Assembly (NCBI GenBank): GCA_016869515.1
Contig: VGDZ01000012.1
Coordinates: forward strand, 1 to 59,498
Reading direction: 5' to 3'
DNA: 59,498 nucleotides
DNA from: Alphaproteobacteria bacterium
GTDB taxonomy: Bacteria > Pseudomonadota > Alphaproteobacteria > VGDZ01
The translations under genes were made by a program, and so were the position numbers. Every line of letters starts with the position of its first letter. The stretch's first letter is position 1. This document shows positions 29,801 through 31,999 of the stretch, in pieces. Below the pieces are notes generated by a model. That model was not told the DNA's origin. It made no database searches and saw only the letters and a program-made list of their open reading frames with translations.

Positions 29801-30727
29801 TCACTCAAGCGGATTGGCAGCGGGGAGGGCGCGTTGCGGCAGATCGAAAAAGCGGGGCTCGGCGCCGTGGAGCGGCCGGACCTGGCCGCGCGGCCCTTGG
29901 CCGCCGCCCGAATTCGAGAGATAGCGGGCGACGGCGACATTGCCCGGTTTGTAGCTGTAGGCCGCGGCGGAGCGCGGCTGCGAAGCGGGCGCGGCCGCAG
30001 GCGCTGGGGGCGGCGCGGCCTCGCCGTCATATTGAGCCAGGTGCATGTTGGAATCGGCATCGCGGCTCTTGAGGCCGCGCGCGACCAGACCGGCGGATAG
30101 CGCTTCGGCGCGCTTGACCCGGCTCCATTGCACGGCATCGCGCTGGCGTTCCTCGGCCAGGCGGAGCCGCTCTTCGCGCCATTCGCGGTCGACCTTGACC
30201 CGGTAGGGTCCGCCCTTTTCGGGCTTGGCCGAGTGATAGCGTTGAACCGCCGCCGGCCAGCCGCCGGTTTCGTCCTTGAGCTGGATGAGGAATCGGGCGG
30301 CATAGCTGGCATTGATCACCGGATCGAAGGCCTCTTCCAGGCTGTCGAAGGCGTCGCGGTGATACATCAGATTGACCTGCATGCAACCGACGTCGATCGA
30401 ACGCACGCCGCGCGCCTGCAAGGCGTCGACCGCTTCGATCGCCTCGGCCTTGGTGGCGAAAAAGCGGCCCTGGCCCTCGGCATTGATGGTCCAGGGCCAG
30501 GCAATTTTTGCCTGCCGCCCGCGATCGTAGCGGCCGGATTCGACCAGCGAGATGGCGTGCATCAGATCGGCCGGGATGCGATGGGCACGCTCGGCGCGCA
30601 TGATCGCGACCCGGCAATTGTCCTCGGCCAGGCCAGGCGCTGCCCAGCTTTGGCCGACAAAGCCCATCGCCACGAAAACCGCCAACGCGGCCCAAATCGT
30701 CCACGCGGCCTTTTCCAATCGGTCCAT
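29801..30727 (-). CDS. Lytic transglycosylase SLT-domain protein with disordered tail
   Basis: The 308-residue protein has an N-terminal hydrophobic signal or anchor (WTIWAALAVFVAMGFVGQSWA). An SLT-like domain of about residues 30-160 has the catalytic Glu in HAISLVESGRYD, then GCMQVNLMYH and RYHSAKP. A charged helix follows (residues 180-215), then a Pro/Ala/Ser/Gly-rich tail of about 90 residues with no fold visible. The ATG at 30727 gives the signal peptide. Confidence 0.8.
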   Translation of the reverse strand: MDRLEKAAWTIWAALAVFVAMGFVGQSWAAPGLAEDNCRVAIMRAERAHRIPADLMHAISLVESGRYDRGRQAKIAWPWTINAEGQGRFFATKAEAIEAVDALQARGVRSIDVGCMQVNLMYHRDAFDSLEEAFDPVINASYAARFLIQLKDETGGWPAAVQRYHSAKPEKGGPYRVKVDREWREERLRLAEERQRDAVQWSRVKRAEALSAGLVARGLKSRDADSNMHLAQYDGEAAPPPAPAAAPASQPRSAAAYSYKPGNVAVARYLSNSGGGQGPRGQVRPLHGAEPRFFDLPQRALPAANPLE

Positions 30728-30830
30728 CGTCGTACTCCCCTGCCTTTCTGGCAGGCCGGGCTCAGCAAGCCGCGTGCCAGGGCGGCCACGCATTCAGACT
30801 GATCAGGGGTGGAAACGTGTCATCCATTTT

Positions 30831-30856
30831 TGCAGTGCAACATTGCTTGCACTGCA
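30831..30856. promoter_or_regulatory. Perfect 10-bp dyad overlapping the -35 of the small RNA promoter
   Basis: TGCAGTGCAA (30831-30840) and TTGCACTGCA (30847-30856) are perfect inverted repeats separated by 6 nt. The right arm contains the predicted -35 box TTGCAC of the downstream small RNA, so a bound repressor would block the promoter. TGC/GCA-rich dyads of this kind resemble sites described for PhaR, the polyhydroxyalkanoate regulator; that link is inference. Confidence 0.6.
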
Positions 30857-30875
30857 GCATTCAAGCGAGCATATT
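30847..30875 (+). promoter_or_regulatory. Predicted sigma-70 promoter of the alpha8 small RNA
   Basis: TTGCAC (30847-30852) and CATATT (30870-30875) are separated by 17 bp. A start site near 30881 would put the 5' end at the first small hairpin. Confidence 0.5.
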
Positions 30876-30877
30876 CA

Positions 30878-30942
30878 AGACGCCCTTTTTGGGCATTTCC
30901 TCCCTTGACTTGGGCCACGCTTCGGCGTGGCCCCTTTTTTTG
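30878..30942 (+). ncRNA. Alpha8-type small RNA (MmgR / Rfam suhB family)
   Basis: A short hairpin GCCC-TTTTT-GGGC (30882-30894) is followed by the single-stranded decamer TTTCCTCCCT (30896-30905). A strong intrinsic terminator comes last: GGGCCACGC-TTCG-GCGTGGCCC (30912-30933), then C and seven T residues (30935-30941). Two hairpins flanking an unpaired UUUCCUCCCU is the hallmark I recall for alphaproteobacterial alpha8 RNAs, including MmgR of Sinorhizobium, which is linked to polyhydroxybutyrate granules. No plus-strand protein gene lies upstream, so the terminator belongs to an RNA gene. The 5' end is a prediction; known members are nearer 77 nt. The CCUCC stretch could pair with ribosome-binding sites of target mRNAs. 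Confidence 0.82.
30912..30941 (+). terminator. Intrinsic terminator of the small RNA
   Basis: A perfect 9-bp GC-rich stem with a TTCG tetraloop is followed by a seven-T tract. It points rightward, away from the leftward protein genes on both sides. Confidence 0.92.
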
Positions 30943-30955
30943 TTGCAGCGCGGAA

Positions 30956-31846
30956 TTATTCGGCAGCTTGTGGCAGGCACGGACGCAAATCCGCCCAAGG
31001 AAAGGCCGCCAATTCTGTCAGCACCGCTGTCAGATCTGCGATCAAAGTGGCGAAGCCAGGGCCGCGTTCGAAGCGCGCCTCGTCCATGTAAAGCCGGCGA
31101 TTGAATTCGATCTGGAGCGCATGGAGGCCTTCACTTGGCCGGCCGTAATGGGATGCTATGAACCCGCCGGCATAGGGTCGATTGGCGCGCACGCCATAAC
31201 CGCGTCGCTTGAACGCGGCCGCCAGCGCCTCGACCAAGGCCGGCGACGCGCTAGTCCCGTGCCGATCGCCCAATACGACATCGGCCCGCATCTGGCCGCG
31301 ATCGGGTTCGCCCGGCCCGGCCGTCGAGGGCATGGAATGGCAATCCAACACCGCGGCCGCGCCATGGCGCGCGCGCATCGCCGCGACGATCTCTCCCAAG
31401 CGGCGATGAAACGGCCGGTGGTAAAGCGCGAGCCGGCGTTCGATCGCGGCTGTGCTCAGCCTGCGGCCATAGATTTCGATTCCGCCCATCAACCGCGGCA
31501 CCACGCCCTGGCCCAAGGCCGCGCGCGGTCCGATCTCGATGATCGCGTCATCGTCTCCGCCCAGCAGCGGATCCGATTCGTCCTCGCCGCGATTGACGTC
31601 GACCGCGGCCCGCGCCACCTGTTGGATCAGGGCGCCAAGCCCGCAGGCGCGCGCCGCCGGCTCGACCAGCAGATCGACCAGCGGGTCTTCGAGTCCGCGC
31701 AGGATCGCGCGTTCGAGCCGCGCCTCGGTCAAAAGCGCGCGCGGATAATGCCGCCCGGCATGCGGCACGCTGAGGACCGCGGGGATCGAATCCCCGGCCG
31801 GGGCCAGCACGCGGCAAGGCCAAGCCAATTCCTCCAGCGACGACAT
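30956..31846 (-). CDS. N-formylglutamate amidohydrolase family protein
   Basis: This 296-residue HutG-type zinc hydrolase has SVPHAGRHYP near residue 30, DVNRGEDE, the metal region VLDCHSMPS with GDRHG, and HALQIEFNRRLYMDE. Family members hydrolyse N-formyl-L-glutamate to formate and glutamate, or related N-acyl amino acids. The gene is not in a hut operon here. The ATG at 31846 is chosen over one five codons earlier. It ends 14 nt beyond the small RNA terminator on the opposite strand. Confidence 0.85.
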   Translation of the reverse strand: MSSLEELAWPCRVLAPAGDSIPAVLSVPHAGRHYPRALLTEARLERAILRGLEDPLVDLLVEPAARACGLGALIQQVARAAVDVNRGEDESDPLLGGDDDAIIEIGPRAALGQGVVPRLMGGIEIYGRRLSTAAIERRLALYHRPFHRRLGEIVAAMRARHGAAAVLDCHSMPSTAGPGEPDRGQMRADVVLGDRHGTSASPALVEALAAAFKRRGYGVRANRPYAGGFIASHYGRPSEGLHALQIEFNRRLYMDEARFERGPGFATLIADLTAVLTELAAFPWADLRPCLPQAAE

Positions 31847-31873
31847 GAGCCAAGCTAACACGACGCGCCGCGC

Positions 31874-31924: not shown

Positions 31925-31999
31925 GGGCGCGTAGCTCAGCGGTAGAGCACTACCTTGACATGGTAGGGGTCACAGGTTCGATCCCTGTCGCGCCCACCA
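31925..31999 (+). tRNA. tRNA-Val (GAC)
   Basis: The acceptor arms GGGCGCG (31925-31931) and CGCGCCC (31989-31995) pair over 7 bp and are followed by A and an encoded CCA (31997-31999). The D-loop TAGCTCAGCGGTAGAGCA and the T-arm GGTTCGATCC are canonical. The anticodon stem CTACC/GGTAG holds loop TTGACAT, giving anticodon GAC for valine. Confidence 0.97.

Follow-up and report, generated by a model that had tools for sequence, protein, structure and literature searches.

A small RNA gene of the alpha-8 family

The window (the whole stretch of DNA that was analyzed, 59,498 nucleotides long) carries on its plus strand, between two protein genes of the minus strand, a small RNA gene that by its sequence is a clear new member of the known alpha-8 (MmgR/SisA) family (Table 1). 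Members of this family act as small regulators by which alphaproteobacteria adjust their carbon storage.

Table 1. Features at the small RNA locus, in coordinates of the window
Feature	Position	Strand	Basis
SLT-like protein gene, upstream neighbour; SLT just under the Pfam cut-off	29801-30793	-	ORF and Pfam
PhaR/AniA-type box 1, TGCAGTGCA	30831-30839	.	Motif YGCRNYGCR
Candidate promoter: TTGCAC (30847-30852), 17 nt, CATATT (30870-30875)	30847-30875	+	By eye
PhaR/AniA-type box 2, TGCACTGCA	30848-30856	.	Motif YGCRNYGCR
Alpha-8 (MmgR/suhB) sRNA	30875-30948	+	Full RF00519 covariance match
5' hairpin GCCC-UUUUU-GGGC (GCCC 30882-30885, GGGC 30891-30894)	30882-30894	+	Covariance match, fold
Single-stranded conserved decamer UUUCCUCCCU, predicted anti-Shine-Dalgarno seed	30896-30905	+	Sequence search, covariance match
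Intrinsic terminator (stem 30912-30933, T run to 30941)	30912-30941	+	Terminator search
FGase (N-formylglutamate amidohydrolase) gene, conserved neighbour	30956-31861	-	PF05013, 219.9 bits

The Rfam model RF00519 (suhB, now MmgR) matches the gene end to end (model positions 1-77 of 77), with 68.3 bits against a gathering cut-off of 41 and an E value of 5.4e-12 when the whole 59.5-kb window was searched on either strand. A separate covariance search of 30700-31100 recovered the identical match, and all other Rfam families in that segment stayed under their own cut-offs. An earlier note on this DNA had proposed an alpha-8 RNA of the MmgR type at 30878-30942, to be checked with this very model and to be given up if it gave no hit and the strand no transcript; its identification is borne out and its placement is right, although the full match is slightly wider than the extent it gave. 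The succession of parts that it had described, that is, a GCCC/GGGC hairpin, a decamer and a strong terminator, was likewise found in that order.

The 68-nt stretch 30875-30942 folds with -28.8 kcal/mol (z = -4.5), a stability equalled by none of 200 shuffled sequences. The terminator stem has nine pairs, eight of them G-C, and is followed by the T run, such that the 3' end of the RNA is probably at about 30941. The decamer, TTTCCTCCCT in the DNA, occurs once in the window, where shuffling expects 0.05 occurrences. It is the core of the alpha-8 family, and its position 3' of a weak hairpin and 5' of an intrinsic terminator is a feature of family membership (PMC12559287).

Could the resemblance to an sRNA be incidental, the stretch being just the 3' part where a longer transcript terminates? 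U-tailed terminators are common, and weak, terminator-driven Rfam matches do occur here, such as SorY with 31.2 bits for a cut-off of 111. Such an origin is nevertheless very improbable: the RF00519 score is far over its cut-off and spans the decamer and the 5' hairpin, and there is no upstream plus-strand gene. Indeed, as the earlier note had stated, no credible plus-strand protein gene ends at the terminator, both flanking genes being on the minus strand; the plus-strand open reading frames (ORFs) listed here run antisense over them. The same weak SorY match is what could be invoked for an sRNA of another family, of the SorX/SorY or the CUCCUCCC type. SorX and SorY (RF02784, RF02651) do share with our RNA a strong terminator placed after a CUCCCU core, but both models score under their cut-offs at the locus, SorY far under, and the genome's true SorX-like sequence lies elsewhere; we regard the probability of this assignment as close to nil.

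That other sequence, at C4:74200-74275, is the only RF00519 match besides the one above cut-off in this genome, and it is below cut-off (32.2 bits). As a second MmgR it was rejected: it is better described as SorX (37.1 bits, cut-off 46.6), with the core CCTCCCTGT. This SorX-like candidate sRNA (L002, 1501-1580, minus strand) has a strong terminator and lies about 220 nt downstream of a same-strand gene that reads as LysR-type. Sequences resembling the ACGTC hairpin and CCTCCCTGT were also seen in several PhaR-less genomes (L125, L126, L128 and L133).

The sRNA and FGase genes are arranged tail to tail, the FGase stop being 8 nt beyond the end of the model match. For the alpha-R8 gene present as a single copy, a place beside FGase is described as the hallmark (PMC12559287). 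Among 107 related alpha-8 loci (see below), 80 have FGase downstream and on the opposite strand; no other arrangement was encountered at any of the 107. A scan of genome contigs for close relatives of the FGase protein gave eight loci of 34-44% identity. Just past the FGase gene is a tRNA gene (31925-31996, plus strand; RF00005, 71.1 bits); because the listed start of the ABC-transporter ORF, 31960, falls within this tRNA gene, the ORF must truly begin further on.

Caulobacter crescentus SisA (alpha-R8) has an identical decamer, and sisA is also downstream of an FGase gene (PMC12559287). C. crescentus has four siblings of this family (same source), whereas a single full member and the sub-threshold SorX-like match are found here. 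Sinorhizobium meliloti MmgR (alpha-r8, RF00519) is alike in its full-length covariance match, decamer, hairpin and terminator, and also in having a PhaR-type dyad at its promoter (PMC12542648, PMC8401924).

Paired PhaR-type boxes upstream of the small RNA

Boxes 1 and 2 form a perfect 10-bp inverted repeat (30831-30840 and 30847-30856; TGCAGTGCAA/TTGCACTGCA) that contains two TGCN3GCA boxes and ends 18 bases before the start of the model match. In the whole 3.69-Mb genome, TTGCANTGCAA occurs once, at the sRNA locus, and the tandem TGCANTGCA pair occurs once, upstream of the sRNA, for a backwards control of 0. The boxes fit YGCRNYGCR, the site defined for S. meliloti PhaR (AniA) (PMC12542648), and are likely PhaR sites, as predicted from their sequence. 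For mmgR of S. meliloti, both binding and repression by PhaR are reported (PMC12542648; repression also in PMC8401924). The S. meliloti table gives one site for mmgR, whereas two boxes 17 nt apart are present here.

The candidate promoter of Table 1, with a transcription start near 30882, is only weakly suggested, because it was read by eye and a consensus scan of the sRNA upstream stretch returned no sigma-70 promoter; transcription could start anywhere from about 30855 to 30883. TTGTGCA is the NtrC-linked heptamer of S. meliloti, and the exact heptamer was not seen at the sRNA locus here. A third YGCRNYGCR, TGCAGCGCG, is found at 30945-30953, between the terminator of the sRNA and the stop of FGase; it may be a chance occurrence, since about 9% of 90-nt windows hold such a motif.

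The link to polyhydroxybutyrate (PHB) that the earlier note had drawn for this RNA is backed by these upstream boxes and by the gene content of the genome. Profile searches identified phaR (PF07879 at C157:637-816, 106.1 bits), the PHB synthase gene phaC (PF07167) and two phasin matches (Phasin_2, PF09361). Three YGCRNYGCR boxes precede the gene of a 172-aa phasin, at -112, -90 and -54 from the ATG, and one box stands directly before the ATG of phaR, where the sequence contains GTTGCAGCGCAAC. As both genes carry boxes upstream, the same box type marks expected PhaR targets in this genome. At the second phasin match (L135), no box was seen in the 350 nt preceding a 429-aa ORF, which lies after the domain match and does not contain it. 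By eye, a phasin promoter, TTGACG-N17-TATATT, can be read with the three PhaR-type boxes around it (L134). An isolated TTGTGCAGTGCA box was also noticed at C31:29775 (L143), near an ORF on the minus strand that reads as transglutaminase-like.

The box motif across the class

RF00519 matches at E <= 1e-4 were obtained in 155 of 289 genomes of the class, and matches above cut-off in 135 of the 289. We surveyed 107 alpha-8 loci of 51 families; besides our own, 154 genomes have a match, and 106 of these supplied the loci (G077 contributed two). Loci were taken best score first, such that weaker ones are under-represented; three of the 107 loci kept have fewer than 9 of the 10 decamer positions, and the C4 row of our own genome was set aside. 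All genomes compared are from orders other than that of this organism.

A YGCRNYGCR box is present within 90 nt upstream at 71 of the 107 loci, and two or more boxes at 28; at least one box-bearing member was found in 38 of the 51 families. For comparison, the motif turned up in 9.1% of 3228 control windows taken at these loci; when the upstream stretches were shuffled, in 200 runs, box-bearing loci averaged 9.7 and never exceeded 18 of 107. Motifs of altered spacing or order were found at 3, 22, 3, 13, 2, 0 and 1 of the 107 loci, the value of 22 corresponding to a spacing increased by one base.

Of the 30 spacings measured where two boxes occur, 17 amount to 20 or 21 nt, which is about two helical turns. 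When these 17 are aligned, a CTTGA-like -35 comes first, box 1 lies within the spacer, and box 2 follows a CATATT-like -10. Our window departs from this layout: its boxes are spaced 17 nt instead of the usual 20-21, there is no CTTGA at the matching place, and the -10 CATATT is also placed differently. The candidate promoter is shifted relative to these relatives, and box 2, by eye, overlaps its -35.

Boxes were found at 69 of 101 loci with a detected phaR and at 4 of 12 without, a modest difference whose Fisher p of 0.025 is only indicative, because the set was hand-picked, genomes having been dropped after their sequences were seen. The PhaR-less set of 12 is made of six of 13 added genomes and six already sampled; seven PhaR-less genomes were dropped as unclear alpha-8 (G036, G062, G114, G120, G149, G155 and G202). 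In G148 and G172, the absence of phaR may reflect incomplete assemblies.

The modest size of this difference, together with the 36 of 107 related loci that lack any box, suits another reading, in which the RNA is a genuine alpha-8 sRNA whose boxes are not used by PhaR, its expression being constitutive or under another factor, such as NtrC. Known systems offer precedents for both, as SisA is nearly constitutive (PMC12559287) and NtrC control of mmgR is reported in S. meliloti (PMC8401924). Yet the box motif is strongly enriched, clustered by position and spacing-specific across the class, the tandem pair occurs nowhere else in the genome, and its box type is common to the phasin and phaR upstream regions. 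We thus consider unused boxes unlikely.

A tandem PhaR operator on the alpha-8 sRNA would, in our estimation, rather probably be an old class-wide trait of the Alphaproteobacteria, partly lost since. In this reading, box 1 sits in the promoter spacer, with box 2 about two helical turns on and past the -10, and the link between the PHB sensor and the sRNA that tunes PHB would date from early in the history of the class and would be no peculiarity of S. meliloti. The abstract of Ceizel Borella 2018 reportedly already mentions TGC[N3]GCA in other alphaproteobacteria. For the Caulobacter sisA-D genes, no common upstream motif is reported in PMC12559287. In the open-access literature searched, no title among the matches listed reports a class-wide box at alpha-8 loci. 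The wide occurrence of a PhaR-type operator in the family extends published work and is no departure from it.

Predicted regulation and candidate targets

From the sequence and by analogy with known systems, we consider it probable that the RNA is a trans-acting alpha-8 sRNA that PhaR represses until PHB accumulates, and whose seed masks Shine-Dalgarno sequences. The most likely label would be that of a PhaR-repressed anti-Shine-Dalgarno sRNA. As suggested by S. meliloti, free PhaR would bind both boxes when PHB is scarce, and transcription would be blocked; as PHB accumulates, PhaR would be titrated onto granules and the sRNA would be made. The sRNA, probably with Hfq, would then cover the Shine-Dalgarno of mRNAs through the exposed UUUCCUCCCU (CCUCCC core) and lower their translation. 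Phasins or granule growth would thereby be limited, and carbon and energy genes adjusted. This scheme has parallels in both model species: MmgR lowers the PhaP1 and PhaP2 proteins in S. meliloti (PMC8401924), and the decamer of Caulobacter SisA, of which CrfA is a sponge, represses mRNAs by pairing with their leaders (PMC12559287).

The MmgR/SisA RNA is hereby placed in a further alphaproteobacterial order, and tied there by sequence to the PHB sensor PhaR. Moreover, judging by the number of boxes counted across the class, the circuit described in a single rhizobium may be a general one; for species in which the RNA is known and its control is not, this is a clear prediction.

As to targets, no clear pairing of the sRNA seed with the phasin leader was seen, so direct control of phasin is unsupported here, and the effect on granules may be indirect. 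Duplex energies were computed without a shuffled control and were given no weight as evidence. In the genome, GGGAGGAAA lies 1-10 nt from an ATG at three places, against none for the backwards control. At one of these (C28), no ORF of at least 90 aa starts at the site on that strand. The two others are at believable gene starts, of a molybdopterin oxidoreductase that reads as formate-dehydrogenase-like (L138, on C63) and of an ABC-type periplasmic binding protein (L139, on C77). A nine-base seed complement stands at the Shine-Dalgarno of each of these genes, which are proposed, as predictions only, to be targets of the sRNA.
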